Shown here piece after piece: positions 2,959 to 31,096 of a stretch of 64,000 bases of DNA. This DNA comes from Leptotrichia sp. oral taxon 847 (GTDB lineage: Bacteria; Fusobacteriota; Fusobacteriia; Fusobacteriales; Leptotrichiaceae): the NCBI RefSeq assembly GCF_001553645.1, contig NZ_CP014231.1, positions 1,302,001-1,366,000 of the forward strand. The letters run 5' to 3'. Both the position numbers and the translations under genes were made by a program. Position 1 is the stretch's first letter. Every line of letters starts with the position of its first letter. The notes below the pieces were generated by a model, which did not search any database, had not been told where the DNA came from, and was given only the letters and a program-made list of their open reading frames with translations.

Positions 2959-3061
2959 ATTTTTTAGCCTTCTTTCTTTTTTATAATTTTTTTATATCCA
3001 ATAATTTCTAAGTAAGAAAACTGAGATTTCTCCGAGTTTTCATCATTTTAAAATAACTAAA

Positions 3062-3094
3062 AATCTGTTCCTAAATTTTTTATTCTATCCTTTT
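3062..3094 (+). repeat. Remnant resembling the right end of the 466-bp element
   Basis: The sequence ATCTGTTCCTAAATTTTTTA matches the right-terminal segment of the element copies at 10904 and 13196 (ATCTGCCCCTAAAATTTTTA). It sits alone, upstream of the core copy at 3210, and may be left from another insertion. Between it and the core the sequence is AT-rich with a run of about 14 T and no gene. Confidence 0.35.
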
Positions 3095-3209
3095 CTTAAT
3101 TAATATCAAATTTTTGGATATACTTCTGTTATTGTATACCATTTTTTTTTTTTTTGATTATAAGCAACTTATTTTACTTATATAACATTAATAAAATATT
3201 AAAACAATT

Positions 3210-3597
3210 TTTTCTTTTTTTAAGCAGAAGTGCTCATCGCCGCACCCCTGCACCCCGGCAAGGCTCAAGACATTTTTATGTGCTGACAAAAAACTCGCAC
3301 TAGTCGTGCTCAGACAGTTTTGTCAGCACATAAAAATGCTCCGACGGTTTAAATTTTACTACTATAGAAAAAGTGTCGTGATTTTTTTGAAGTAAAGACG
3401 ACTGTCTGAACGAAGTGAGTTTCGGCTTTGCTTCAAAAAAATGCTTAGACGAGCGTGGGGATTATAAGGGGAAATGGCGGCCCTTTCCCCTTATGTGAAA
3501 AAATAGAAAACCATACTAAACAAAATAACATCCTGTAAATAAAAATAAATTAAAAAAGATTGAAATTAAAATTTATCCCTAAATATTTTACTCTATT
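3210..3597 (+). mobile_element. 466-bp element, copy A (diverged)
   Basis: Core of the structured repeat. It contains a 21-bp perfect inverted repeat (CATTTTTATGTGCTGACAAAA and its complement) around a loop, a second stem built on TTTTTTTGAAG/CTTCAAAAAAA, and a third built on AAGGGGAAA/TTTCCCCTT. Compared with copies B and C the left 75 bp are missing or replaced, and the right end reads CCCTAAATATTTTACTC, like the left-terminal type. It occupies most of the gap between the exported-protein cluster and the peptidase gene. No coding potential. Confidence 0.8.
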
Positions 3598-3677
3598 TAT
3601 TTATATAAAAAAATTGCTTTTTTTCCTTAACTGTGGTAATCTTTTGGTATAAAAATTAAGTGAAAGGAAGTAAAGAA

Positions 3678-7153: not shown

Positions 7154-7198
7154 TAGAGAATGTTAAAAGTTAAACTTTATATTCTCTATAATTTTTTC
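7154..7198 (+). terminator. Terminator after cysE
   Basis: TAGAGAAT...ATTCTCTA stem followed by an ATTTTTT run, 22 bases after the cysE stop. Confidence 0.7.
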
Positions 7199-7214
7199 TC
7201 TTCATTTCACACAA

Positions 7215-7300
7215 ATTTACGACATTTTTTTGCATTGTCAAAAAAGTCAATTTTGTACGAAATCGTCAATACGTAAAAATACTCTGATAGATTAAGCTTA
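7215..7300 (+). repeat. Degenerate remnant of 466-bp element hairpin 1
   Basis: The order CGACATTTTTTTGCATTGTC ... CGTCAATACGTAAAAATACTC resembles the first hairpin of the repeated element (CGACATTTTTATGCACTGCC ... TGTCAGCACATAAAAATGCTC). A terminus-like stretch of the same family (CTTAAATATTTTACTCTGTC) lies at 7601-7620, on the other side of the tRNA gene. If real, this is an old copy now split by or placed around tRNA-Gln. Weak, by eye. Confidence 0.3.
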
Positions 7301-7320
7301 TTAACAAATGATTGTAAATA

Positions 7321-7354
7321 AAAATAAAAAAAACTGTCTTAACAAAGAGACAGT
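7321..7354 (-). terminator. Terminator of tRNA-Gln
   Basis: On the minus strand ACTGTCT...AGACAGT followed by a T-rich run, about 30 bases downstream of the tRNA 3' end. Confidence 0.75.
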
Positions 7355-7385
7355 ATACATAAACAACTATTTTAAATTTTTAAAA

Positions 7386-7460
7386 TGGCTGGGCTGAATG
7401 GATTCGAACCATTGCATGCTAGAGTCAAAGTCTAGTGCCTTACCGCTTGGCGACAGCCCA
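7386..7460 (-). tRNA. tRNA-Gln (UUG)
   Basis: Full cloverleaf on the minus strand: acceptor TGGGCTG pairs with CAGCCCA, the T-arm contains GGTTCGAATCC, the anticodon loop is CTTTGAC with anticodon TTG, and CCA is encoded. A T-rich terminator follows. Confidence 0.96.
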
Positions 7461-7600
7461 ATAAATAATAATTTTAACGACTATGTAAGTATATCAAAAA
7501 AAAAAACTTTTGTCAACATTTTTTTGAATTTGAAAAAAGTTTTTGTGTACAGATGTCAAACATTTGTTACAAAAATATATTAAAAAATATTGAAATTAAA

Positions 7601-7620
7601 TTTACTCTTAAATATTTTAC
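7601..7620 (+). repeat. Solo terminus of the 466-bp element family
   Basis: CTTAAATATTTTACTCTGTC matches the terminus that ends copy D (CTAACTATTTTACTCTGTC). It lies 24 bases before the glmS -35 box and has no full element attached. Confidence 0.4.
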
Positions 7621-7643
7621 TCTGTCTTAAAAAAATTAAAATA

Positions 7644-10821: not shown

Positions 10822-10903
10822 AAATAATCACTCCTTTAAATTTTATTTTCTAGTGTCATTTTAACATATTTTTTTAGAAAATGTAAAATTTTTATTTAAC
10901 ATA

Positions 10904-11369
10904 GACAGAGTAAAATAGTTAGGGGTAAATAAAAAATCTTATTTTAAGTTTTTCATTCAATCCAGAAAGTTACTAAAATATTTTTTTATTTTTTAAGCAG
11001 AAGTGCTCATCGCCGCACCCCTGCACCCCGGCTAGTCTTCGACATTTTTATGCACTGCCAAAAAACTCGCACTAATCGTGCTCAAACAGTTTTGTCAGCA
11101 CATAAAAATGCTCCGACGGTTTAAATTTTACTACCATACAAAAGTGTCGTGATTTTTTTGGAGTAAAGACGACTGTCTGAACGAAGTGAGTTTCGGCTTT
11201 GCTTCAAAAAAATGCTTAGACGAGCGTGGGGATTATAAGGGGAAATGGCGGTCCTTTCCCCTTATGTAAAAAATAAAAAAATAATATTAAACAAAATAAC
11301 ATCTTGTAATCAAGAATAACCTAAAAAATTTGAAATTAAAAAATCTGCCCCTAAAATTTTTAAACCATC
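10904..11369 (+). mobile_element. 466-bp MITE-like element, copy B
   Basis: Intact non-coding element. It starts GACAGAGTAAAATAGTTAGG and ends AAATTTTTAAACCATC; the ends form an imperfect 22-bp terminal inverted repeat (15 of 22 match). It is flanked by a 10-bp direct repeat ATTTAACATA (10894-10903 and 11370-11379), a target duplication. Inside are three hairpins (around 11040-11120, 11145-11215 and 11230-11265). No open reading frame for a transposase, so it must move in trans, if at all. It inserted at the stop codon of the HxlR gene. Confidence 0.9.
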
Positions 11370-11682
11370 ATTTAACATAATATTTCTTCCCATAACTTTG
11401 CATAAGTTCCAAAATAGGCAATAAATCTTTTCCTTTTTCTGAGAGGATATATTCTGTCTTTTTTGGGTAAACATTGTATTCCCGTTTTTCTATAAGTTTT
11501 TCTTTGATTAAATAGTTTAAATGCTCAATAATCATTTTTTCGTTGCTGCCTTTTATTTGATTTTTGAAATCTTTTGTTCTGACTTTTCCGTGTCTTAAAA
11601 GCCATAATATGATGACTGTCCATTTTTTTGATAATATTTTTTGAGTTAGTTCCAGCGGACAAGTGTAAATTTTTTCTTCCAT
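11368..11682 (-). CDS. HxlR-family winged-helix regulator
   Basis: 104 residues, normal for the family. The typical motif set is present: an N-terminal Cys (YTCPLELTQKIL), the KWTVIILWLL first helix, GSNEKMIIEHLNYL recognition region, and the wing KREYNVYPKKTEYILSEKG. Such regulators often sense thiol or carbonyl stress through that Cys. It lies 83 bases downstream of the MATE gene on the same strand and probably controls it. Its stop TGA is formed across the junction with element B: the original frame would have ended TAA at the same codon. Confidence 0.9.
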   Translation of the reverse strand: MEEKIYTCPLELTQKILSKKWTVIILWLLRHGKVRTKDFKNQIKGSNEKMIIEHLNYLIKEKLIEKREYNVYPKKTEYILSEKGKDLLPILELMQSYGKKYYVK

Positions 11683-11765
11683 ATAAATTTTCCTTTCAAT
11701 GAAATTATTTGAAATTTTAAAAAATACTAAATAATCTTGTTTTTACTATAATTCTTTTAATTTTT

Positions 11766-13085
11766 CTATATTTTTTTAGAAATTTTTATAAAATACCATA
11801 CTCGAATTAGCAGTCCTCCTGTCCAGCCTATCGGTGCGGCAATCCAAATTCCGTTATAGCCTAACGATGTTTTGGAAAGTAAAATGGCTAGAGGCACTTG
11901 AAACATACAAAATGAAGTAATAGATGCTATTAGTGGAACTAAGGATTTTCCGTAGCCTAGTAGCAACCCATTTAGTATTTGCATTGTGCAGAAAATTACG
12001 TAAAATGCTGAAATTATACGTAAATATTGATTTCCTATAAAAATCACTTCGGGATTTCGGTTAAATATTGAAATAAAGAATGCTGGAAAAATAAAAATAA
12101 TAATTGAGATTATGATGGAAAATGTGATTCCTAAAATTAGGCTATCTTTTCCACCTTTAATTATTCTATTCATTTTTTTGGCTCCATAGTTTTGGGCTGT
12201 AAAAGTCATCAACGCCTGTCCTAAATTTATGGATGGCAATTCTGCGAAGGAATCAATTCGGGAAGCAGAAATAAAAGCTGCAATACAGTCTGTTCCAAAT
12301 CCATTTACAAGAATTTGAATGACAATAAATCCTAGGCTGATTAAAACTTGCTGTAACATTGCTGGCATTCCAATAATCAGTATTTCTTTTAAAATATTAA
12401 AATTTAAGTTGAAATAATGTTTTTGAAAAATTAAATTTGGATATTTAAATTTTATGTAAAGTAAGCAAAGAAAAAAAGAAACAAACTGTGAAATAACAGT
12501 TGCAATTGCTGCTCCTGCAACTCCAGAGTTTAGTACTGCTACAAAAAATATATCTAGGATAATATTTAAAATCACTGCGGTAATTAAGATGTAAGTCGGC
12601 GTTTTTGAATCACCTACGCCTTTTAACGTATTTGTGAGGGAATTATAACCAAAAGTTGGAACAACTCCAATAAAAATAATTTTTAAATAGATATTTGCCT
12701 CCAGTAACAATTTTTTCGGAACATTAATTAAAATTAAAATATTATTTGATAGTAAAAAACCTAATGTTGTAACAATAAGAGATAAAACTATGGAAAAAAT
12801 AAATCCTGTATTTGCAGTAATTTTCAAATTTTCCATATCTTTTGCCCCAAAATATTGGGAAATTAGAATGCTTGTCCCTAATGAAATACCTATCGAAACA
12901 GCTATTATAAGTACATTAATTTGATAACTTGAGCCTACAGCCGCAAGGCTTTCCTTTCCTAAAAAATTTCCCACAATGATTGTGTCTGAAATATTGTAAA
13001 TCTGCTGAAATAAATTTCCTATTAAAATTGGCAAAGAAAAATAAATTATTGTTTTTAATTCGTTTCCTTTTGTTAAGTCTTTCAT
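11766..13085 (-). CDS. MATE-family multidrug efflux transporter
   Basis: 439 residues with about 12 hydrophobic segments, the standard MATE length. Family signatures are visible: LPILIGNLFQQIYNISDTIIVG in the first helix region and AAVGSSYQI shortly after, with the repeat of this pattern in the second half (AMLQQVLISLGF, INLGQALMTFTAQNYGAKK). These pumps export cationic drugs using Na+ or H+. Probably in an operon with the HxlR gene downstream. The gene pair is bracketed by element copies B and C. Confidence 0.92.
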   Translation of the reverse strand: MKDLTKGNELKTIIYFSLPILIGNLFQQIYNISDTIIVGNFLGKESLAAVGSSYQINVLIIAVSIGISLGTSILISQYFGAKDMENLKITANTGFIFSIVLSLIVTTLGFLLSNNILILINVPKKLLLEANIYLKIIFIGVVPTFGYNSLTNTLKGVGDSKTPTYILITAVILNIILDIFFVAVLNSGVAGAAIATVISQFVSFFLCLLYIKFKYPNLIFQKHYFNLNFNILKEILIIGMPAMLQQVLISLGFIVIQILVNGFGTDCIAAFISASRIDSFAELPSINLGQALMTFTAQNYGAKKMNRIIKGGKDSLILGITFSIIISIIIFIFPAFFISIFNRNPEVIFIGNQYLRIISAFYVIFCTMQILNGLLLGYGKSLVPLIASITSFCMFQVPLAILLSKTSLGYNGIWIAAPIGWTGGLLIRVWYFIKISKKI

Positions 13086-13195
13086 CTTTATTTTTTCTCC
13101 TTTTTTTCTTTATCTGCCTGTTAATTGATATTTTAACATTTATTTTATTTGATATGAATAACATACTTTTTTGTAAGTAGATATTTTATCAGTAT

Positions 13196-13661
13196 GACAG
13201 AGTAAAATAGTTAGGGGTAAATAAAAAATCTTATTTTAAGTTTTTCATTCAATCCAGAAAGTTACTAAAATATTTTTTTCTTTTTTAAGCAGAAGTGCTC
13301 ATCGCCGCACCCCTGCACCCCGGCTAGTCTTCGACATTTTTATGCACTGCCAAAAAACTCGCACTAATCGTGCTCAAACAGTTTTGTCAGCACATAAAAA
13401 TGCTCCGACGGTTTAAATTTTACTATTATACAAAAGGTGTCGTGATTTTTTTGGAGTAAAGACGACTGTTTGAGCACGTTTAGTGCGAGTTTCGGCTTTG
13501 CTTCAAAAAAATGCTTAGACGAGCGTGGGGATTATAAGGGGAAATGGCGGTCCTTTCCCCTTATGTAAAAAAATAATATTAAACAAAATAACATCTTGTA
13601 ATCAAGAATAACCTAAAAAATTTGAAATTAAAAAATCTGATCCTAAAATTTTTAAACCATC
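13196..13661 (+). mobile_element. 466-bp MITE-like element, copy C
   Basis: Same length and ends as copy B, with the same terminal inverted repeats. Its own 10-bp target duplication TTATCAGTAT lies at 13186-13195 and 13662-13671. Nearly identical to B except in the loop of hairpin 2, which here reads CTGTTTGAGCACGTTTAGTG and is the reverse complement of its hairpin 1 loop at all but one position. Inserted between the divergent MATE and pgi genes, just upstream of the pgi promoter. Confidence 0.92.
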
Positions 13662-13677
13662 TTATCAGTATTTTTAT

Positions 13678-20949: not shown

Positions 20950-20959
20950 GATGGTTTAA
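20897..20959 (+). pseudogene. Transposase N-terminus, truncated by element D
   Basis: Nineteen codons (MSSISEIYRVRQRAVEYAM) then Val and TAA supplied by the element end. The N-terminus looks like HTH transposases of IS481/IS3-like groups whose next residues continue the helix-turn-helix; the family cannot be fixed from this length. Confidence 0.55.
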
Positions 20960-21417
20960 AAATTTTAGGGGCAGATTTTTTAATTTCAAATTTTTTAGAT
21001 TATTTTTGATTACAAGATGTTATTTTGTTTATATTATTTTTTTATTTTTTTACATAAGGGGAAAGGACCGCCATTTCCCCTTATAATCCCCACGTCAGTC
21101 TAAGCATTTTTTTGAAGCAAAGCCGAAACTCGCACTAAACGTGCTCAAACAGTCGTCTTTACTCCAAAAAAATCACGACACCTTTTGTATAATAGTAAAA
21201 TTTAAACCGCCGGAGCATTTTTATGTGCTGACAAAACTGTCTGAGCTTAAGCGAGTTTTTTGGCAGTGCATAAAAATGTCTTGAGCCTTGCCGGGGTGCA
21301 GGGGTGCGGCGATGAGCACTTCTGCTTAAAAAAGAAAAAAAATTTTAGTAACTTTCTGGATTGAATGAAAAACTTAAAATAAGATTTTTTATTTACCCCT
21401 AACTATTTTACTCTGTC
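20950..21417 (-). mobile_element. 466-bp element, copy D (reverse)
   Basis: 468 bp in the reverse orientation with both canonical ends (GATGGTTTAAAAATTTTAGG at left, ATTTTACTCTGTC at right). It has no target duplication: the left flank TTGAGTATGC and right flank CCGTCTAAAA differ, so one flank was lost by recombination or deletion. Its hairpin 1 loop is the short GCTTAAGC version. Confidence 0.88.
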
Positions 21418-21486: not shown

Positions 21487-21987
21487 GTGAAAAATATAAA
21501 AAAATATATAACAATACTAATTTTTTCTCTAGCTACTATTAATTTTTCAGCACCTGTTGATGATGCTACTAAAATTTTAGATATTCAACAAAGACAGCTT
21601 GAGCAGGAAAGAAGCAGGATGGAGCAGCAAAAAAGTCAAGAAGAATTTGAAAATACTAGATTTAATGATGTTCCAAAAATTGATAAAAATAGCAACTTTG
21701 ATGATAAAAATTCTAAAAAATTTTTGATAAATGAAATTGATATTGAGGATAAAGACAAACTACTTTCTAAGAAAGAAAAGAAAAACATACTTAAAAAATA
21801 TGAATATTTGAAAATGGGAAGCAGCGATATTCAAAATATTCTGGTTGAAATTACTAATAAATTAGTTTCTAAAGGGTATATTACAAGTATTGCAACAGTT
21901 TCAGATAAAAATGATTTGACTACAGGTACTTTAAATTTAAAAGTTATCGCAGGGAAGATTGAAGATGTCAGACTCAACATTTTCTAA
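21487..21987 (+). pseudogene. TpsB (FhaC/ShlB-type) transporter, 5' fragment
   Basis: Up to 166 residues remain of a protein normally around 550-600. Signal peptide (YITILIFSLATINFSA), a Gln/Glu-rich helix (ILDIQQRQLEQERSRMEQQ) as in the TpsB N-terminal plug helix, then part of a POTRA domain (FLINEIDIEDKDKL ... VEITNKLVSKGYITSIATV ... GTLNLKVIAGKIEDVRLN). The reading frame ends inside element E, so the second POTRA and the whole beta-barrel are gone and no export pore can form. The likely original ATG at 21496 now reads ATA; only a GTG overlapping the AAGAGG site remains. Confidence 0.85.
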
Positions 21988-22394
21988 TTTATTCTTGATT
22001 ACAAGATGTTATTTTAGTTAGTATATTTTTTTACATAAGGGGAAAGGACCGCCATTTCCCCTTATAATCCCCACGCTCGTCTAAGCATTTTTTTGAAGCA
22101 AAGCCGAAACTCACTTCGTTCAGACAGTCGTCTTTACTCCAAAAAAATCACGACACCTTTTGTATAATAGTAAAATTTAAACCGTCGGAGCATTTTTATG
22201 TGCTGACAAAACTGTCTGAGCTTAAGCGAGTTTTTTGGCAGTGCATAAAAATGTCTTGAGCCTTGCCGGGGTGCGGAGGTGCGGCGATGAGCACTTCTGC
22301 TTAAAAAAGAAGAAATTATTTTAGTAACTTCGTAAGTTGAATAAAAAACTTAGAAACAGAAGTTTTTATTTACTCCTAAATACTTTACTCCATC
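21979..22394 (-). mobile_element. 466-bp element, copy E (reverse, one end truncated)
   Basis: Same three-hairpin core in reverse orientation. About 50 bp of the canonical GATGG end are missing where it joins the tpsB fragment; the other end reads TTTACTCCATCC, a diverged form of the canonical TTTACTCTGTC. Its sequence supplies the tpsB stop codon. More diverged outside the hairpins than B, C and D. Confidence 0.85.
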
Positions 22395-22410
22395 CAAACA
22401 TTAAAAAATT

Positions 22411-22439
22411 TTGACAATGACTTAATATAGGGGTATACT
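22411..22439 (+). promoter_or_regulatory. Promoter upstream of tpsA
   Basis: Consensus TTGACA at 22411 and TATACT at 22434, 17-base spacer, about 150 bases before the tpsA leader. Confidence 0.72.
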
Positions 22440-22510
22440 TTTAATAATAATATTTTTTTTTTAGTAAAAAATAGAAAAATTATTAAAGTAAGAAAAAAGT
22501 AGACTAATGT

Positions 22511-22585
22511 TTCACAAATAGATAAAAATAGCAACTTTGATGAAAAATTTTTTATAAACTAAATGAATGCCTAAGATAAGGAAAT
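22511..22585 (+). pseudogene. Second, decayed scrap of tpsB
   Basis: The 20-base string GATAAAAATAGCAACTTTGA also occurs in the tpsB fragment (the IDKNSNFD region, near 21678), and the bases after it (TTTTTTATAAACTAAATGAA) echo TTTTTGATAAATGAAATTGA there. All frames contain stops. It shows that tpsB-like sequence was once present, or was duplicated, on this side of element E. Confidence 0.55.
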
Positions 22586-22590
22586 AAAAT

Positions 22591-22636
22591 GTGAAAAATA
22601 AAGTTTTAAGGAAATCAATTGCATTCTTAATTGATG
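22591..22636 (+). other. tpsA signal-peptide start, out of frame by one base
   Basis: GTG at 22591, nine bases after AAGGAAA, opens KNKVLRKSIAFL, the positively charged start of a signal peptide whose hydrophobic end (LMLSMNMNSFAA) is in the next frame from 22631. Removing one A at 22629-22630 joins them. As it stands, translation from GTG ends after about 21 codons at TAG. Confidence 0.75.
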
Positions 22637-25600
22637 TTATCAATGAATATGAATAGTTTTGCAGCAAATCTTGAACTAGATCCTAACTCAAGATACAATA
22701 CAAAACTTGATATGTCACGAAATGGAACTCCAATCGTTAATATTTCTACTCCGAATGGTCGTGGAATAAGTATTAATGAGTTTCTTAACTACAATGTCGG
22801 TCATGAAGGGCAAGTGCTTAATAATGCTGATAACATTGGGCGTAGCCATCTTGCCGGGATTATTAATGCTAATCCGAATTTGGCTGCCAACCAGGCTGCA
22901 AACTTGATAATCCTTCAGGTAAACGGGTCTAACCGTTCGGATATTGAAGGGTATCTGGAAGCTTTGAGCCGTCAGAAGGTAAATGTCATTTTGAGTAATG
23001 AAAATGGTATTTACTTAAATGGTGCAGGAACTATTAATATTAGAAATTTTGTTCCGACTACAGGAAGAGTAAAGCTTCAGAATGGAGACTTCGTAGGAAT
23101 TGATGTTGAAAAGGGAAGAGTTGTGATAGGCTCAAACGGGTTTGATGCATCGACTACGGATTATGTCAATGTAATTGCAAAAGCTCTTGAATTGCAGGGA
23201 AGTCTTGTTGGAAACAAGGTTGATGTAACTCTTGGAGAAAATACAGTTGATAAAAATGGTGCAGTTACTTCAAAACATGGAATAAATTCTGTTGCAATTG
23301 ACGCAAGCAAACTGGGTTCGATGTATGCAGGACAGATCAGCATAATCAGTACTGATAAGGGTGCAGGAGTAAACTCAAGAGGAATTGTTTATTCAAGAGA
23401 CAAAAAACTTGAAATTACAGCAGATGGAAAAATAAATGTTGCAAAAATTAAAGGGAACGGTATTGAAATTAATGGTACAGAGTACAATCAGGCTGAACTT
23501 GCCAGTTCTGATAAAGGAATTAATATCAATGCTAAAAATATTAAGCTAAATGGAGAAACACAGGCAGCTGGGGATATTAATTTAAATGGGAATACTCAAA
23601 ATAACTCTAAAATATATTCTGAAGGAAATTTTAACACAAGAAGTCTTTTAAATACAGGCGATATTAATGTTGCTGGGAATTTTAAGGCTGATGATTTTAA
23701 AAATGTTTTGGCAGCTGTTAATACAGGTGGGAATTTGAATGTTAAAAACTTGGAAAACAGTGGTAGCATTCAAGTTTCTAGAAGTACAGGGATTGACGGA
23801 AAGTTAAATAATTCAGGTAACTTGACTTCTATAGACAAAATAACTGTAAAAAATGATATTTTAAATTCCGGAAATATTTCAACTAATGGAGATTTGTCAA
23901 GTAAAAATGCAGTTTCATCAGGTATGATTGTTGCAAATAATTTTACAACAAGTAATTTGCAGAATGATGGAAAAATCTTTACAAATGCGGATTTGAAAAC
24001 AAAATATTTCAAAAATACTGGAGAAATTTCAGCCGTTGGGAAAATATCAAGCGACAGTATGGTTTCAAGTGGAAGCATTAGAACAAATGAAGCTCTTGAT
24101 ATTTCAGGTGACTTGAATAATGACGGGACTTTACAGAGTGCTAAAGATATTACGGTTTCAAGTAACATTAAAAATAGCGGTAAAATTTATGCTGGCGGAA
24201 ATTTATCAGGAAAGGATGCTGTTTCAAGCGGGAAAATAGTTTCTAAAAATTTAAGAGTGAATGACCTTAAAAATGATGGAGAAATTTTTACAAATGAAGA
24301 TCTTCAGGCTAAAAATGTTACGAATACTGGTAAAATAGCATCTGCTGGAAATATTTCCACAAAAGATTTGAAAACTTCAGGAAGCATAAAATCTAATAGA
24401 AAAGTTACAGTTTCAGGAAAGCTTGAAAATGATGGGGATTTGGAAGCTGTAGAAGATATAAAGGTTTCGGGAAATGTAAGAAACACTAAAGAGATAGCGA
24501 CAAATGGTAATTTTTCTGGTAAGAATGTGGTTTCAAAAGGGAAAATTATTTCCAAAAATTTTGAATCTGATGATTTGGATAATGATGGGAAAATTTCTTC
24601 AAATGAGAATGTAAAAGCTAGAAATATTAAAAATACTGGAGAGATTCAGGCTGTAGGATCAATATCAGGAAATAATTTAAAAACTTCAGGAAAAGTTAGG
24701 GCAAATAAAAAAATTACAGTTTCAGGAGAACTTGAAAATGGTGGGGATTTAGAATCAGGAAAAAGTCTGACTGTTTCAAAAAATATTAAGAATACTGGAA
24801 AGATTGCTGTAAATGAGGATATTTCAGGGAAAGATACTCAAAATTCAGGAACCATGTATTCTAAAAATCTTAAAACTGATAATTTGAAAAACGATGGAAA
24901 AGTTGAAGTTGGAAACGATTTGAAAACGGCGGATATTGAAAATACTAAAGATATTACAGCTGTTGGGAAAATCTCAGGGAAAAATGTCAATAATTCTGGA
25001 AAAATTTTGACTAATGGAACACTGGATGTTAAGAATGTTAAAAATATTGGAAAAATTGCAGCAGGAAGTGATGTTACATCGCAAAGGCTTGAAAATTCAG
25101 GAGTTCTGGCGACAAATGGGAACATTACGACTTCGGATTCGATGACTAACAGCGGAAATATTGAGGGTAAAAATCTTGATATAACTGGTTTGGAATTCAC
25201 AAATAGCGGTAAAATATCAGCTGACAACATTAGGGCAAGGGTTAATGACACTAAAAATAATGGAAGTATTTCTTCAGCAAATGACATTGATTTAACGACA
25301 AATACTTTAACGAATACAAAAGAAATGCTGGCAGTAAACGACATAAATTCAAATAATGCGACAGTTTTAAATTCAGGAAAAATGGCTTCAAACGGTAAAA
25401 TACTGCTAAATAATTCAAGCATTACAAATATTGGACAGATTTTGTCTGGAGAAATTTCTATGCAAAATGCGAAAAAATTTGATAATACTGGAACTGTAAA
25501 AGGGAATAAGACGGTTCTTACAACTGACCAGGATCTAAATCTGGTTGGAAATTTGCATGGAGAAAGCTTGCTTGAAATTTCAGGAAACAACATTACAAAC

Positions 25601-28600
25601 AATGGAAATACGACAGGGGCGGGGCTTATTAAAATAAGTTCTAATGACTTTACAAATAATAAGGAACTGGCTTCAAATGCTGTGATTATTGATGGTCGTG
25701 GGAATGTTGTAAACAACAATATGATTACTGGAAATGATGGTAAAATTAATGGAAACAGCATTACTAACAATGATTTGATCGCTTTTGATAATTATCTTGA
25801 GATGAATGCTAAAAGTAAGGTCTTGAATAATAAAGATAAAAGTATTTATGGTGGTCAAACTTTAATTATTCACGGTCAGGAACTGATGAATGATGAAGGT
25901 GAAATTCTTGGTGGAAATATGGATCTGAATGCTTCTAAAATCACTAATAATGTTGGAACTGTTCAGTCAACTGGGGATATTTTCGTTACTTCAAATGATT
26001 TTCAGAATATTGGAAGAGTTACTGGTTTAGGAAATTATGAGAAGTATTATGAAACTTGGGATGGACAAAGATTATCTGAATCAGAAATTGCAAGTAAATG
26101 GCTGCTTAATGATAATGGAGGATGGAAGAAAAAAACTAGCGGACATACTAGAAAAAAAGCAAGAAAAGAACAAAAAGAGTGGTTTGAAAAACAAATCCAG
26201 AATAATAATAAATCTGAATCTAAATCATATCTGCTTACAAAATATGAGCAATTTTTTAGATCGATTTTAGGACATACAAACGTAGATGATTCAAAAAAAG
26301 TAGCAAGCAGTACCAAAGATCCGACAATACCTCTTGTTGGAAAATTAAAAAGTAAAGCATCAACTGAATATGGAAAAGTCCTGGCAAATGGAAACATTAC
26401 AATAAATTCAGGTAATTTTAAAAATAAGGACAGTTTAATTTCAGGTGGAGGCTTAGTCAATATTACTGCAACAAATTTTGAAAATTCAGTAAGCATTGAT
26501 GATAAAAATCCTATAAAACTAAAAAATGGTAGAGAGATATTGGATTTAAATATCAAGGAGGGAACTCATCATCATATTCTAAGAACTACTCTAGTTGCTG
26601 TTCACACAAGAGATATGGTTGACGAGGATATAGGCTATGCAACAGGACAGCCTTCTATCATTGAAGGTTCACTTGTAAACGTGAATGCTCCAAATATCAT
26701 AAAAAATTCTATTGAAGCAGGAAACGGAAAAGTACTGAATAATGGTGGGGCAACTGGTAGAGCCTTGATTTCTTCAAATTCAATAGGAATTAACAAGGGT
26801 ACAGGTTCAGCAAATGGAGCGGTTCAGGTTGCTGGAAATGCTTTACTATCCAAAGTAAATAGCGGCTTTAATGGAAATTTACAGGTTAATGGCAGCAGCA
26901 ATAATAGTTTTGACAGGGCAATACAAATTTCAGGAAATAATTCAGTTATTCAAAATATTAAAAAAACTGGAACAATTGATGTAAACCCACTATTAAGCAG
27001 CGCAATGTTTACGATGAATATGAGTCCATCTTCAAAATATCTTCTAGAAACTCGTTCAAAATACATAAGTCTAGGTCAATACTATGGAAGCGACTACTTC
27101 ACTTCAAGAGTTGGGTATTCGGAAATTTGGGACAGAAGTAAAAGATTAGGAGATGCCTTTTATGAAAATCAATTGCTTACAAGAGCTTTAAATGAAAAGC
27201 TTGGAACAAGCTTTTTGAACGGAAAATCTAATCAGGAATTGATTCAGTCAATGATGGATAATGCGGCTGATGAAAAAGCAAGGCTTGGTCTTGTTGTCGG
27301 TCAGGCATTGACTCAGGATCAGATAAATGCCTTAAATGAAGATATTATCTGGTATGTCTCAAAGGAAGTGAATGGAGTCAGTGTTTTGACACCACAAATT
27401 TACTTGTCAAGCAGAACTAGGGAAAGCATAAGCGATGACACTAGAAATAGAATTGGTGGAATAAATGGAACTTATGTCAAGACTAAAGATTTTGTAAATG
27501 ACGGGACAAAATGGGGTAACGGCGGAGTTACCTATGTTGAAGCGAATACTGTGAGAAATGAGACTACAACAAATCTTCTTTCTGAAATTTCAGGAGATAG
27601 AACATTCATAAGTTCAGTTGGAAATATTGAAAATATCGGCGGAAAAATAAAGGGAAATGAAGTTGTAGGTTTAATTTCTGAAAATGGAAATGTAATCAAC
27701 AATACAACCAAAAGAAAAGTAGGATTCAATAATGGCGAGTTTGACAGAAGCTGGCATGAAGAAATAGGCTCAATTGGGCAAATTTCTTCAAATGGATTAA
27801 CTTTTATTAAGGGTAACAGCTATGAGTCAACAGGAGGAATTCTAAACACAAATCATCTTGAACTTGATGTAAATAAATTCAATGTATCGGCATTGTCTTT
27901 AAGCGGTGAAGATAAATTCGGCAAGGGCAGCAATAATTACACAAAATATGGTGCAACAGAACATTTAGGCGGAGAAGTAACTGCAAATTCTACTTCAGGA
28001 AGAATAGGAGATTTAAACCTTACAGGCTCAGCATTTATTGGCGGAGATACACAAGGTCTGAAAATTGGGAAAGTGAATGTAGAATCCGCTGTAAACAGTT
28101 ACGACTTGGAGTCAAAACAGACAAGTAAGAATACGGTTTCTAAAAGCAGTACATACATAAAATCTCATCAGGAAGAAAATGTTGCAGGAAATTTACAGCT
28201 TAGCGGAGCAAGAATTGAAGGAAACTTGACAGGAATCGGAAGTAACATTGATTTAGGTGAAAATACCTTTGTTGGCGGGAAATTGACAACAGATTCGAGA
28301 GAATTACATAATAGTTTTTATGAAAAAAATACGTCCAGAGGATTTAGTGCAGGAATTAGTCACGGAACGGCTTCATTAAATTATGGAAAATCAGGCAGCA
28401 CCTATGATGAAAAAGATACGATAAATGCCAAATCAAATTTAAGAATTGGCGATGGAAGTGTGCTAAATAACGGAGCGGAAATTACTGCCACAAATTTTGA
28501 GTATGGAAATATTCAAATTAATAATGGTGACGTAAAATATGGTGCAAGAATTGATACAAGAGATGTAAAAACTACTTCAAGAAGTAGTAATTTTGGTGTG

Positions 28601-31096
28601 TCAATTGGAATAAACAGTCCAATTAAAGATAGAATTGAACAAGCAGCTGGAGCTGTAAAGCAAGCTAGAAGGGGAGATACGATAGGTGGTCTTGTAGCGG
28701 GAGTAAATGCAGGAACTGGAATGGTTTCAGGACTTGCAGGAAATCAAGGGACAAGACAGGCTTATCACACAGGAAATTTAAGTCAAAGTGAAGTAAGAAA
28801 TGCGAGTGCAAACAATAACTTTTATGCAAATATTGGAGTAAATGCAGGATATTCTACTTCTAAAAACAGTAACAACTCCCACAATGAAAGTGCCGTAGTT
28901 ACGACAATGAAACCAATGCATGAAAATTCAAGCATAACTTACAACAATGTAAACAACATAACTTATCAAGGAACACAGGCTCAAGGTGGAACATTCATTT
29001 ACAACAATGTTAAAAATATTCGGAAGGAAGCAGTAGAACTTCATAACAGCAGCAGTTCAAGAAGTTCAAATTTTGGAATAAGTACGGGAGCGACAATTGG
29101 ATATGGCTACGGAACACAGATTACTGGAAATGGTGGAAGTGTTTCTGCAAATAGAAGTAATCAAAATACGAATGAAACTATTTATCAAAATGGTAATTTT
29201 CAAAATGTAAATGAAGTTCACAATAATACTGGTACAATGACACTTTCAGGATTTAACCAGGAAGGCGGAAAAGTTACAGGTAATATCGGCAAGTTGGTTG
29301 TAGAAAGTAGACAGAACACAAGCACGACAACTGGAAGATCAAGCGGTGCAAGTGTAGGAATAAATGCAAATGGAGTTCCTAGTTCTTTAAATGTAAATGG
29401 AAGCAGAACAAATGGAAGTAGAGCATTTGTAGATAATCAAAGCAGCTTTATTGTTGGAGAGGGAAGTAATCTTCATGTTGGTACAGTTGAAAATACTGGA
29501 GCAATTATTGGAAAACAGAGTGAAAACGGTACTACATTTAAAGTTGATAAGTATGTTGGCCACGATATTCAAAACTACGATACAATGACAACAACTGGAA
29601 TTTCAGTAGGGACTTCATTAGGAAAATCTCCTAGAGTTACAAATATCGGATTTAATCAAGAAACAGGAGATAAACAAGGAGTAACTAGAAATACAGTAGT
29701 TGGAAATGTAGAAATAGGAGAAGCTTCTGGAAGTCCAATAAATAAGGATGTTACAAAAGCTAATGAAGTTACAAAAGATGTACAGCATTCGACTAATATT
29801 AATGTTGAGAGTCAGACTATTGAGTATGCTACTAATCCTGGTAAGTTGAAAGAAGATTTGAATAAGGCTAAAGATGAAATAAAGGATGTTACAAAGGCAC
29901 TTGATAATTCAATTCATGACCCGGGAGATGACAACAGAAATTTCTTTGGACAGTTGAGAGAAACTAGACTTTCTGAGACAGTCAATAATATTGCTGGAGA
30001 GAGATTGAAAGTTGCACAAACAAGAAAAGAAATAGCAAGTGCCTTTGAAGAGGCTTACTCTGATTTGGGATATAAAAATGTAAAAGTAATTTTTACAACA
30101 CCTGAACATGCTAGTCAATTGATTGATGAAAATGGAAAACCAAAGGCTGGAACGGCTTATATAAATAAAAAAACAGGTGAAAAAACAATATTTATCAATG
30201 AAAATGCTGAGGAAAATCAAACAAAAACAGGACTTATTGGAGTAATTGCTGAAGAAGGAAGCCATATTATAAATGGAGTTGAAGGAAGACAAATAGAAAC
30301 AGGAACTGAAGAAAAAGGACTTGAAAGTACAGGAAGAGCAACTAATGAATATTTCCAAGAAAAATATAAAGATGATGCTGACAAGTTAATAATTCATAAA
30401 TCTGATGGGATTGACTATTCTGGAATTGATTTTGGAGAAAATGTAGGAGATAGAAAAGGAAAAGAAATTACAAGTACTTTTCTAGATTTCGTACCTTATG
30501 TTGGAACAGCAAAAGGTATAATTGAAGGAATAACGGGGAGAGATTTAGTAACTGGTGAAAAAATTGACCTATTTTCAAGAGTGATGGGAATAATTCCAGG
30601 TGCAAAAGCAGTAGGTAAAGGAACAAAAGCAACAGTTAAAGGAATAAAAGCATCAGGTAAAATAATAAAAAATTCCAAAAAAATAAAAGTAGTGTTATCA
30701 GATGGTTCAAAAATAACATTAAAGTCAAATGAAGTTACTAAATTAGAAAATAAATTTAAATTTAAAATATCTACGAAAAAAGAAAATATTAAGATAAAAT
30801 CTACGCGAACAATTAATTCGAGTAAAATAAAATCAGATATACTTCAAACAAATAAAAATATAAAGTTTAACGCATTAAAAACTAACATAAAGGGACAAAA
30901 AGTTTTTAAAAATTCAAAAGGTTTTGTCTTTTATGCAGATGATTTTCATTATCCAGTTCATTATGAAGTTTTTAAAAATGGGAAGCATGTAGGTATAATA
31001 GATGCGAAGACTCTACAAAAAAATAAAGGAAATTTTGATATAAAATCTGTTAATACAAGTGAAGCCAAAAAAGGAAGAACTATAAATATGAAATGA
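22631..31096 (+). CDS. TpsA/CdiA-like filamentous haemagglutinin with toxin tip
   Basis: About 2820 residues. Residues 10-190 form the TPS secretion domain (GRGISINEFLNYNVGHEGQV, NLIILQVNGSNRSDIEGYLE, NVILSNENGIYLNGAGTINI). A long beta-helix follows, including exact 103-residue repeats near 445-855. Ser/Asn-rich haemagglutinin repeats cover about 1830-2400. A conserved box EEGSHIINGVEGRQ near 2540 and ENVGD near 2602 close the constant part. Then comes a pretoxin-TG-like segment (FLDFVPYVGTAKGIIEGITG, near 2614) and a basic C-terminal tip with HYPVHYEVF that I cannot name. Family knowledge: such proteins are exported by TpsB and deliver the tip to neighbouring cells. Here the usable start (TTG 22631 or ATG 22634) lacks the charged part of the signal peptide, and the local tpsB is truncated, so export is doubtful. 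Confidence 0.9.
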   Translation: MMLSMNMNSFAANLELDPNSRYNTKLDMSRNGTPIVNISTPNGRGISINEFLNYNVGHEGQVLNNADNIGRSHLAGIINANPNLAANQAANLIILQVNGSNRSDIEGYLEALSRQKVNVILSNENGIYLNGAGTINIRNFVPTTGRVKLQNGDFVGIDVEKGRVVIGSNGFDASTTDYVNVIAKALELQGSLVGNKVDVTLGENTVDKNGAVTSKHGINSVAIDASKLGSMYAGQISIISTDKGAGVNSRGIVYSRDKKLEITADGKINVAKIKGNGIEINGTEYNQAELASSDKGININAKNIKLNGETQAAGDINLNGNTQNNSKIYSEGNFNTRSLLNTGDINVAGNFKADDFKNVLAAVNTGGNLNVKNLENSGSIQVSRSTGIDGKLNNSGNLTSIDKITVKNDILNSGNISTNGDLSSKNAVSSGMIVANNFTTSNLQNDGKIFTNADLKTKYFKNTGEISAVGKISSDSMVSSGSIRTNEALDISGDLNNDGTLQSAKDITVSSNIKNSGKIYAGGNLSGKDAVSSGKIVSKNLRVNDLKNDGEIFTNEDLQAKNVTNTGKIASAGNISTKDLKTSGSIKSNRKVTVSGKLENDGDLEAVEDIKVSGNVRNTKEIATNGNFSGKNVVSKGKIISKNFESDDLDNDGKISSNENVKARNIKNTGEIQAVGSISGNNLKTSGKVRANKKITVSGELENGGDLESGKSLTVSKNIKNTGKIAVNEDISGKDTQNSGTMYSKNLKTDNLKNDGKVEVGNDLKTADIENTKDITAVGKISGKNVNNSGKILTNGTLDVKNVKNIGKIAAGSDVTSQRLENSGVLATNGNITTSDSMTNSGNIEGKNLDITGLEFTNSGKISADNIRARVNDTKNNGSISSANDIDLTTNTLTNTKEMLAVNDINSNNATVLNSGKMASNGKILLNNSSITNIGQILSGEISMQNAKKFDNTGTVKGNKTVLTTDQDLNLVGNLHGESLLEISGNNITNNGNTTGAGLIKISSNDFTNNKELASNAVIIDGRGNVVNNNMITGNDGKINGNSITNNDLIAFDNYLEMNAKSKVLNNKDKSIYGGQTLIIHGQELMNDEGEILGGNMDLNASKITNNVGTVQSTGDIFVTSNDFQNIGRVTGLGNYEKYYETWDGQRLSESEIASKWLLNDNGGWKKKTSGHTRKKARKEQKEWFEKQIQNNNKSESKSYLLTKYEQFFRSILGHTNVDDSKKVASSTKDPTIPLVGKLKSKASTEYGKVLANGNITINSGNFKNKDSLISGGGLVNITATNFENSVSIDDKNPIKLKNGREILDLNIKEGTHHHILRTTLVAVHTRDMVDEDIGYATGQPSIIEGSLVNVNAPNIIKNSIEAGNGKVLNNGGATGRALISSNSIGINKGTGSANGAVQVAGNALLSKVNSGFNGNLQVNGSSNNSFDRAIQISGNNSVIQNIKKTGTIDVNPLLSSAMFTMNMSPSSKYLLETRSKYISLGQYYGSDYFTSRVGYSEIWDRSKRLGDAFYENQLLTRALNEKLGTSFLNGKSNQELIQSMMDNAADEKARLGLVVGQALTQDQINALNEDIIWYVSKEVNGVSVLTPQIYLSSRTRESISDDTRNRIGGINGTYVKTKDFVNDGTKWGNGGVTYVEANTVRNETTTNLLSEISGDRTFISSVGNIENIGGKIKGNEVVGLISENGNVINNTTKRKVGFNNGEFDRSWHEEIGSIGQISSNGLTFIKGNSYESTGGILNTNHLELDVNKFNVSALSLSGEDKFGKGSNNYTKYGATEHLGGEVTANSTSGRIGDLNLTGSAFIGGDTQGLKIGKVNVESAVNSYDLESKQTSKNTVSKSSTYIKSHQEENVAGNLQLSGARIEGNLTGIGSNIDLGENTFVGGKLTTDSRELHNSFYEKNTSRGFSAGISHGTASLNYGKSGSTYDEKDTINAKSNLRIGDGSVLNNGAEITATNFEYGNIQINNGDVKYGARIDTRDVKTTSRSSNFGVSIGINSPIKDRIEQAAGAVKQARRGDTIGGLVAGVNAGTGMVSGLAGNQGTRQAYHTGNLSQSEVRNASANNNFYANIGVNAGYSTSKNSNNSHNESAVVTTMKPMHENSSITYNNVNNITYQGTQAQGGTFIYNNVKNIRKEAVELHNSSSSRSSNFGISTGATIGYGYGTQITGNGGSVSANRSNQNTNETIYQNGNFQNVNEVHNNTGTMTLSGFNQEGGKVTGNIGKLVVESRQNTSTTTGRSSGASVGINANGVPSSLNVNGSRTNGSRAFVDNQSSFIVGEGSNLHVGTVENTGAIIGKQSENGTTFKVDKYVGHDIQNYDTMTTTGISVGTSLGKSPRVTNIGFNQETGDKQGVTRNTVVGNVEIGEASGSPINKDVTKANEVTKDVQHSTNINVESQTIEYATNPGKLKEDLNKAKDEIKDVTKALDNSIHDPGDDNRNFFGQLRETRLSETVNNIAGERLKVAQTRKEIASAFEEAYSDLGYKNVKVIFTTPEHASQLIDENGKPKAGTAYINKKTGEKTIFINENAEENQTKTGLIGVIAEEGSHIINGVEGRQIETGTEEKGLESTGRATNEYFQEKYKDDADKLIIHKSDGIDYSGIDFGENVGDRKGKEITSTFLDFVPYVGTAKGIIEGITGRDLVTGEKIDLFSRVMGIIPGAKAVGKGTKATVKGIKASGKIIKNSKKIKVVLSDGSKITLKSNEVTKLENKFKFKISTKKENIKIKSTRTINSSKIKSDILQTNKNIKFNALKTNIKGQKVFKNSKGFVFYADDFHYPVHYEVFKNGKHVGIIDAKTLQKNKGNFDIKSVNTSEAKKGRTINMK
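23963..25198 (+). repeat. 309-bp tandem repeat inside tpsA, four units
   Basis: Units begin NDG (AAYGATGG) at 23963, 24272, 24581 and 24890, exactly 309 bases (103 codons) apart. Each unit is made of five coils of about 20 residues with the pattern NxGxIxxxxxLxxxN, as expected for a right-handed beta-helix. The repeats have drifted in sequence but not in length. Confidence 0.9.
28127..29890 (+). repeat. Shared constant region, copy in tpsA
   Basis: This stretch is repeated at 31890-33653 at a constant offset of 3763 bases with no net indel across about 1.7 kb, and very high identity by eye (long identical runs of 50-100 bases). Identity falls after the ESQTIEYATNPGKL motif. It encodes the haemagglutinin-repeat part before the pretoxin region. 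Confidence 0.92.
30440..31096 (+). other. Variable C-terminal tip 1 of TpsA (pretoxin + toxin candidate)
   Basis: From the ENVGD box onward the sequence has no counterpart in the second module. The first half resembles the pretoxin-TG linker (DFVPYVGTAKGI, ITGRDLVTGEKI). The last 75 residues (IKGQKVFKNSKGFVFYAD, FHYPVHYEVFKNGKHVGIID, ending KKGRTINMK) form a compact, basic, His/Tyr-containing domain, typical in size for a nuclease tip. Family not identified. Confidence 0.6.

Follow-up and report, generated by a model that had tools for sequence, protein, structure and literature searches.

A short MITE-like element of Leptotrichia with two inverted structured modules, probably mobilised by an ISLre2-family transposase

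Copies of the element and their empty sites

The window analysed here is a stretch of 64,000 bases, positions 1302001-1366000 of the complete genome of Leptotrichia sp. oral taxon 847 (G000; 2,194,935 bases, one contig). It contains two complete copies, B and C, of a 466-bp element, further copies designated A, D and E, and a decayed remnant.

3202..3598, plus strand: copy A, in which the similarity of the left arm is at background level; U1 at 3212-3350 (minus), U2 at 3372-3505 (plus)
7198..7626, no strand given: decayed sixth remnant; U1-like match at 7198-7293 (minus), left-type end at 7605-7626
10894..10903, no strand: left target duplication of B, ATTTAACATA (flanking repeat and empty-site comparison)
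10904..11369, plus strand: copy B, a complete 466-bp element with its ends at 10904-10925 and 11348-11369; site empty in G006, G008 and G002
10985..11122, minus strand: module U1 of copy B (covariance models)
11142..11276, plus strand: module U2 of copy B (covariance models)
11370..11379, no strand: right target duplication of B, ATTTAACATA (flanking repeat and empty-site comparison)
13186..13195, no strand: left target duplication of C, TTATCAGTAT (flanking repeat and empty-site comparison)
13196..13661, plus strand: copy C, a complete 466-bp element with its ends at 13196-13217 and 13640-13661; site empty in G006
13277..13414, minus strand (sense): module U1 of copy C, a structured hairpin unit; the U2 model also detects it (71 bits)
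13435..13575, plus strand (sense): module U2 of copy C; the U1 model also detects it (55 bits)
13662..13671, no strand: right target duplication of C, TTATCAGTAT (flanking repeat and empty-site comparison)
20950..21417, minus strand: copy D, two ends, no target duplication; U2 at 21043-21183 (minus), U1 at 21205-21337 (plus)
21979..22394, minus strand: copy E, lacking the right end; U2 at 22024-22158 (minus), U1 at 22179-22312 (plus)

A first-pass annotation, made from the sequence alone, had placed B and C at these positions, and both are confirmed as 466-bp copies, 96% identical to each other, with different exact 10-bp flanking repeats. The imperfect 22-bp terminal inverted repeats that it described hold for B (15/22 by hand count), and the right end of C carries two further changes (also a hand count). 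Its three additional copies, near 3210, 20950 and 21979, are real (A, D and E above). No open reading frame of 80 or more amino acids lies inside B or C, which therefore lack a transposase gene, as had been proposed.

A 24-mer from the core of the element, searched with up to 3 mismatches, matches 77 times in G000, 69 of them exactly; the reversed pattern, used as a control, gives no match there. Both ends are kept (at most 6 substitutions per end) at 47 of the 77 matches, and 37 of these 47 are flanked by an exact repeat, which measures 10 bp in 32 copies, 9 bp in 4 and 11 bp in 1. The other 10 two-ended copies, D among them, have no such repeat. Among permuted flank pairs, chance repeats average 0.3 for a length of 5 bp, 0.06 for 6 bp and 0.0 for every length of 7 bp or more. 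The genome-wide counts thus bear out the MITE-like nature and the 10-bp duplication first proposed from the window. All 37 duplicated copies are located between open reading frames (100 or more amino acids); in raw counts, the neighbouring frames are codirectional in 27 cases, diverging in 8 and converging in 2.

Seven relatives have an ortholog, at 94-97% identity, of the 1.8 kb that separate B from C. One of these, G006, runs without gaps across both insertion points, over 419 bp at B (flanks 95.7% identical) and 420 bp at C (97.1%). Its B site contains the target ATTTAACATA once and exactly, and its C site contains the target once, reading TTAGTAGTAT, a match of 8/10. The B site is also empty in G008 (target exact) and G002 (1 mismatch), where both flanks align and gaps fall elsewhere. 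In G010, G001, G012 and G011 the alignments cover the B junction with only 6-44 bases on the left; something else is inserted farther left of the site in G010. At the C site the alignments of the other six relatives end before the junction, and G006 alone is readable. B and C are real insertions. Because both G006 sites are empty, the simplest reading is that the two copies were inserted after the split from G006, in agreement with the recent movement that the first-pass annotation had suggested. It had also named empty sites beforehand as the comparison that could overturn its proposal; wherever a site is readable, the result went in its favour.

G006 itself holds five matches to the element at 91-98% identity among the best 40 of 122 candidates, against the 77 core matches of G000. 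Searches of plasmid and phage collections with the element, of viral contigs with a 19-base module pattern, and of a collection of genome contigs with an exact 21-mer of the element gave no match. Nor is the element described in the titles and abstract openings listed, up to 15 per search, in searches of openly licensed literature.

Architecture and distribution of the interior modules

The interior of the element, in which no transposase DNA is recognisable, consists of two back-to-back, inverted, homologous hairpin modules of ~135 nt, U1 and U2, whose 5' ends face each other. Read in opposite directions, the two share one architecture. It comprises a short GUC/GAC helix, a long stem rich in A and U whose GAGC..GCGAG tip varies, a linker, and a second hairpin, variable in its stem and largely conserved in its loop (RUGGCGAYUGA or CGGCGAUGA). 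By eye, several different stems surround a similar loop at this second hairpin in G000. On both strands, copy C forms a much better fold than shuffled sequences do (z -8.8 on plus, -8.2 on minus).

Homology of U1 and U2 is adopted because covariance models of each, built from 15 sequences, detect the other: each of the five U1 copies in A-E is recovered by the U2 model (60-72 bits), and each of the five U2 copies by the U1 model (55-61 bits). Stem symmetry contributes to this cross-match, since the U1 model also scores 22-34 bits on its own long stem read from the other strand. The modules occur together and apart. Loci L229, L252, L254, L259 and others hold U1 and U2 within a few hundred bases, and G002 has at least 24 rows with the left half (U1) only and at least 19 with the right half (U2) only, at different places, among the best 40 of 161 candidates.

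Across the order, the U2 model matches 20 of 96 genomes. These include all 13 genomes of the genus and none of the 20 others of the same family; matches in 7 of the 63 genomes of other families are weak (E 3e-5 to 1e-3). Twelve genomes of the genus contain at least 10-34 matches each and G009 contains one, counts that are lower bounds since the filters were strict and at most 34 candidates were scored per genome, so that weak relatives may be missed.

As a rule, it is the ends that hold MITEs together, and their interior can decay freely. In the present case the modules adjoin two types of ends, and the same cargo thus sits in frames whose ends are unrelated. GACAGAG-type ends lie beside modules in G006, G010 and G011, as well as in G000. 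Ends of the form TACTAAACCCC(A/G)TTTAAA flank U1 on at least one side in 9 of the 11 relatives read (G009 left out), with none in G006 or G012; beside U2 they are rarer, at 9 of 52 loci, some entered twice, in G002, G007, G008 and G010. Twenty-one distinct MITE-like elements of 325-688 bp have both TACTAAACCCC-type ends, and none of them is flanked by a repeat of at least 4 bp. For the TACTAAAC frame, a duplication of 3 bp was considered and rejected (11/21 observed, 8.1 expected, a level reached in 9.7% of shuffles). Because the interior is common to the genus and the ends differ, it seems to be the cargo, rather than the frame, that persists as a unit.

RNA, neutral palindrome or DNA signal

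Several lines of evidence suggest that the module is probably transcribed as RNA, a view we hold with moderate confidence. In the U2 alignment (A4), 99.0% of pair cells are paired, and two-sided changes affect 11 of 40 pairs, a number reached by 8 of 500 shuffles; two-sided cells number 46, compared with 14.4 +/- 3.4 in shuffles, none of 500 reaching 46. Further pair types in A4 are not above shuffles (19 versus 25.1). The U1 alignment (A3) is weaker, with two-sided changes in 3 of 36 pairs (reached by 83 of 500 shuffles), and its covariation score exceeds all 500 shuffles; the structures tested are favoured in both cases because they were derived from the same alignments. The antisense-strand fold of a 73-sequence U1 alignment shows covariation in 1 of 27 pairs.

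The strands also differ. In each of 16 examples, the better fold is that of the sense strand. When A3 and A4 are pooled, the sense strand has G-U in 15 pairs (98 cells) and A-C in 3 (8 cells). Across 136 unique copies of U1, the antisense fold contains 143 G-U and 104 A-C cells and the sense fold 566 and 81, its G-U cells stemming mostly from a few pairs shared by descent.

Candidate promoters are suggestive only, since other positions peak as well and related copies are not independent. A -10-like hexamer (TATAAT, at most one mismatch; 0.4-2.7 expected per position) precedes the GUCG of U1 by 13 bases in 21 of 25 upstream sequences from G000 and in 32 of 61 from elsewhere. Before the GUCG of U2 it stands at 18 bases in 27 of 44 sequences from outside G000 and at 15 bases in 10 of 30 from G000; one of the peaks elsewhere is position -43, in 29 of 61. 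At gathering scores, Rfam gives 7 matches in the window, none of them in copies A-E. The S4-Fusobacteriales leader is among these seven. At a low threshold, copy C returns six sub-threshold matches, to five eukaryotic families (best E 0.0055) and Ocean-V.

We advance, as a possibility still short of probable, that the modules constitute a new structured-RNA family specific to the genus, with dozens of copies per genome, carried as cargo by unrelated transposable frames. In the reading we prefer, the module would benefit the element rather than the host.

A possible account, which we also rate below an even chance, holds that the element is an ordinary MITE with a neutral interior, an old functionless palindrome kept paired by intrastrand template switching and homogenised by recombination. 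Compensated stems could indeed arise through DNA-level repair of imperfect palindromes, and the way in which interiors vary among copies agrees with homogenisation. Interior similarity drops gradually towards the arms. Of the 30 core matches lacking one or both ends, 24 have cores 0.89-0.99 identical to the consensus with arms down to background and 6 have cores of 0.39-0.83, in a sample biased towards kept cores because these copies were found by the core pattern. The most direct comparison comes from L124 / 1610743, the sole orthologous pair with the same orientation in G000 and G006. Between the two species, the identity of its arms is 0.977 and 0.980 and that of its core 0.960; to the family consensus, it is only 0.78-0.87 for the arms and 0.967-0.971 for the core. 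Steady purifying selection predicts a core less diverged than the arms. The values are better explained if other copies have replaced the cores, and purifying selection as the sole cause of alike interiors is disfavoured, with the core of this one pair no less diverged than its arms. Exchange between copies, that is gene conversion, would probably keep the interiors alike, a conclusion drawn from one orthologous pair with few differences. Copies seem to recombine with each other in other ways too, since L123 / 801701 and L125 / 1448031 have opposite orientations relative to their flanks in G006 and G000, and L126 joins flanks located at two different copies in G000.

Homogenisation fits the neutral account well, but template switching should not prefer G-U to A-C on one strand (15 versus 3 pairs), and on its own it leaves unexplained both the presence of one module in elements with unrelated ends and the retention of loops while stems change.

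It is unlikely, in our assessment, that the modules are DNA signals, such as REP/BIME-like palindromes, protein-binding sites or bidirectional terminators, and not an RNA gene. REP/BIME palindromes consist of inverted pairs of palindromic units in many intergenic copies, and the element resembles them in its inverted palindromic pairs, its high copy number, the intergenic position of all 37 copies examined, and the stable hairpin formed on either strand. REP units are, however, much shorter than the ~135-nt two-hairpin module, which in addition lies inside elements with target duplications. A double-stranded signal also gives no reason for the consistent advantage of the sense fold. As for a terminator, the sense strand 3' of the second hairpin is A-rich, not T-rich, and no T-run follows U1 or U2 on that strand.

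An ISLre2-type insertion sequence and proposed mobilisation in trans

Beyond what the first-pass annotation had seen, the interior can be described as a pair of conserved structured modules, and the transposase family can be named as ISLre2-type. The latter comes from insertion sequences with matching 22-bp ends in sister genomes. The left-end pattern is matched in 9 of the 13 genomes of the genus, and in several relatives end pairs face each other 1.5 kb apart. They delimit an insertion sequence of ~1.5 kb with perfect 22-bp ends, GACAGAGTAAAAAATATAGGGG, and a transposase of the ISLre2 family (NF033529, PF06782). Of 18 loci fetched, 17 hold an end pair, 10 of these measuring 1509-1526 bp. An exact duplication of 8-10 bp flanks 7 of the 17 (10 bp in 4 of the 7), and 10 of the 17 have no exact duplication. 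The 407-aa protein of locus L131 scores above the NCBIfam ISLre2 cut-off (E 2.7e-71) and also matches Pfam UPF0236 (E 4.4e-25).

The left end of the element agrees with the insertion sequence end at 19 of 22 positions and the right end at only 16 of 22 (hand counts); in one copy (G000:1436763) the left end is identical to it over 30/30 bp. The element shares with ISLre2-family insertion sequences these ends and duplications of 8-10 bp, but differs from them in its length of 466 bp, its non-coding and unrelated interior, its imperfect inverted repeats and its far greater number of copies here.

ISLre2-family proteins are matched in 7 of the 13 genomes of the genus, above the cut-off in 4, with no transposase match in G000 or G006, so mobilisation has no direct link in these two genomes. 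A 118-bp stretch at G000:792826, which matches the final 133 bases of the insertion sequence with 74% identity, is a possible end remnant. A 1.5-kb end pair at G000:2072738-2074234 was rejected as an autonomous copy; by eye, none of its listed open reading frames is transposase-like. Over 68% of its length, the G001 transposase shows 94% identity to part of a plasmid from Leptotrichia shahii. The family is described in sections of PMC9208149 as having 49 members in ISfinder, as occurring almost exclusively in Firmicutes, and as preferring insertion 50-250 bp from genes.

The structure of the element identifies it with high confidence as a MITE of the ISLre2-mobilised type, its mobilisation in trans by an ISLre2-type transposase being inferred. 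We consider it likely that the element is a non-autonomous MITE mobilised in trans by such an enzyme, with the two inverted structured modules as cargo. After recognising the 22-bp ends, the transposase would either excise or copy the element, whose insertion by a staggered cut would leave the 10-bp target duplication. Sections of PMC10969869 show that other bacterial MITEs, such as QMITE2 of Coxiella, are likewise short and AT-rich, with terminal inverted and flanking repeats, intergenic positions and a stable stem-loop when transcribed, a property only predicted here; the main text of that paper contains no occurrence of the name ISLre2. What sets the present element apart from MITEs in general is an interior made of a conserved paired module that is also found across the genus in elements with unrelated ends.

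It is very improbable that the element owes its mobility to a different transposase family, such as IS4/IS231: although IS4/IS231 elements generate 10-12-bp duplications, so that duplication length taken alone fits IS231-like elements, and although the left and right ends of the element differ, a search of 13 genomes for PF01609 gave no match in G000, none of the relatives' 30 IS4-type loci carries a pair of ends with 5 or fewer substitutions (paired 6-substitution matches occur at L107 and L118, in AT-rich DNA), the sole close match (L117) is the end of an ISLre2-type copy, and ISLre2-type elements already offer ends and duplications that match; an IS4/IS231-type origin is accordingly rejected.

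With mobilisation by an ISLre2-type transposase as the likely reading, the many copies in G000 would be the trace of a past burst, since the insertion sequence is undetected there except for the possible end remnant. This burst would offer a clean natural case for the study of ISLre2-type mobility. If the module is an RNA, it would represent a highly repeated family without an Rfam match at gathering scores or a description in the titles and abstract openings listed in the searches of openly licensed literature. Were that reading true, the two divergent modules of each element would provide one sense copy whichever way transcription runs.

An element remnant around a tRNA gene and a possible one ahead of copy A

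A decayed remnant of the element, the 466-bp MITE-like repeat, is recognisable in the window by two parts, a match to hairpin module U1 (7198-7293, E 2e-7) and a left-type element end (7605-7626), which are separated by a tRNA gene on the minus strand (7389-7460).

7198-7626, decayed element remnant with a U1-like match and a left-type end

A short way ahead of copy A, window positions 3060-3090 look similar to the element's right end (AAAATCTGTTCCTAAATTTTTTATTCTATCC), and this stretch is perhaps another remnant.

Open reading frames at copies B and E

Copy B supplies part of the stop codon of a neighbouring ORF: two of the codon's bases are the last two of the copy, and the other is the first one of the target repeat, the 10-bp duplication flanking it.

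11368-11682, minus strand, 104-aa ORF

Copy E cuts short a 166-aa ORF (window region 21487-22631), and it does so shortly ahead of a 2821-aa ORF (22631-31096). A 52-base repeat flanks this copy, occurring once at 21668 and again at 22507.

Hairpin tips, inversions and module pairing

The tips of the module hairpins take a few long forms (CGCACTAATCGTGCTC-type) and short forms (CGCTTACGCTC, GAACGAAGTGAG).

13358-13380 and 13466-13490, example hairpin tips

Tips were counted by hand in the 69 of 77 genome matches to the element core that are readable at both tip sites. One long and one short tip occur across the two modules in 52 of these 69, both are short in 11, and both are long in 6.

Comparison of loci L123, L125 and L126 in the relative G006 with the window's own genome (G000) shows two shared copies whose orientation is reversed with respect to the flanking DNA; in the third case, each of the two flanks belongs to a different G000 copy. 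Elements may frequently flip or recombine.

Inspection by eye of loci L283-L302 in relatives reveals a further back-to-back unit left of module U2 in about 17 of 20 U2 copies, and the outer hairpin of many such partners bears the same kind of loop. Because most of these U2 copies are paired and many partners carry a like loop, the divergent module pair may be the older form.
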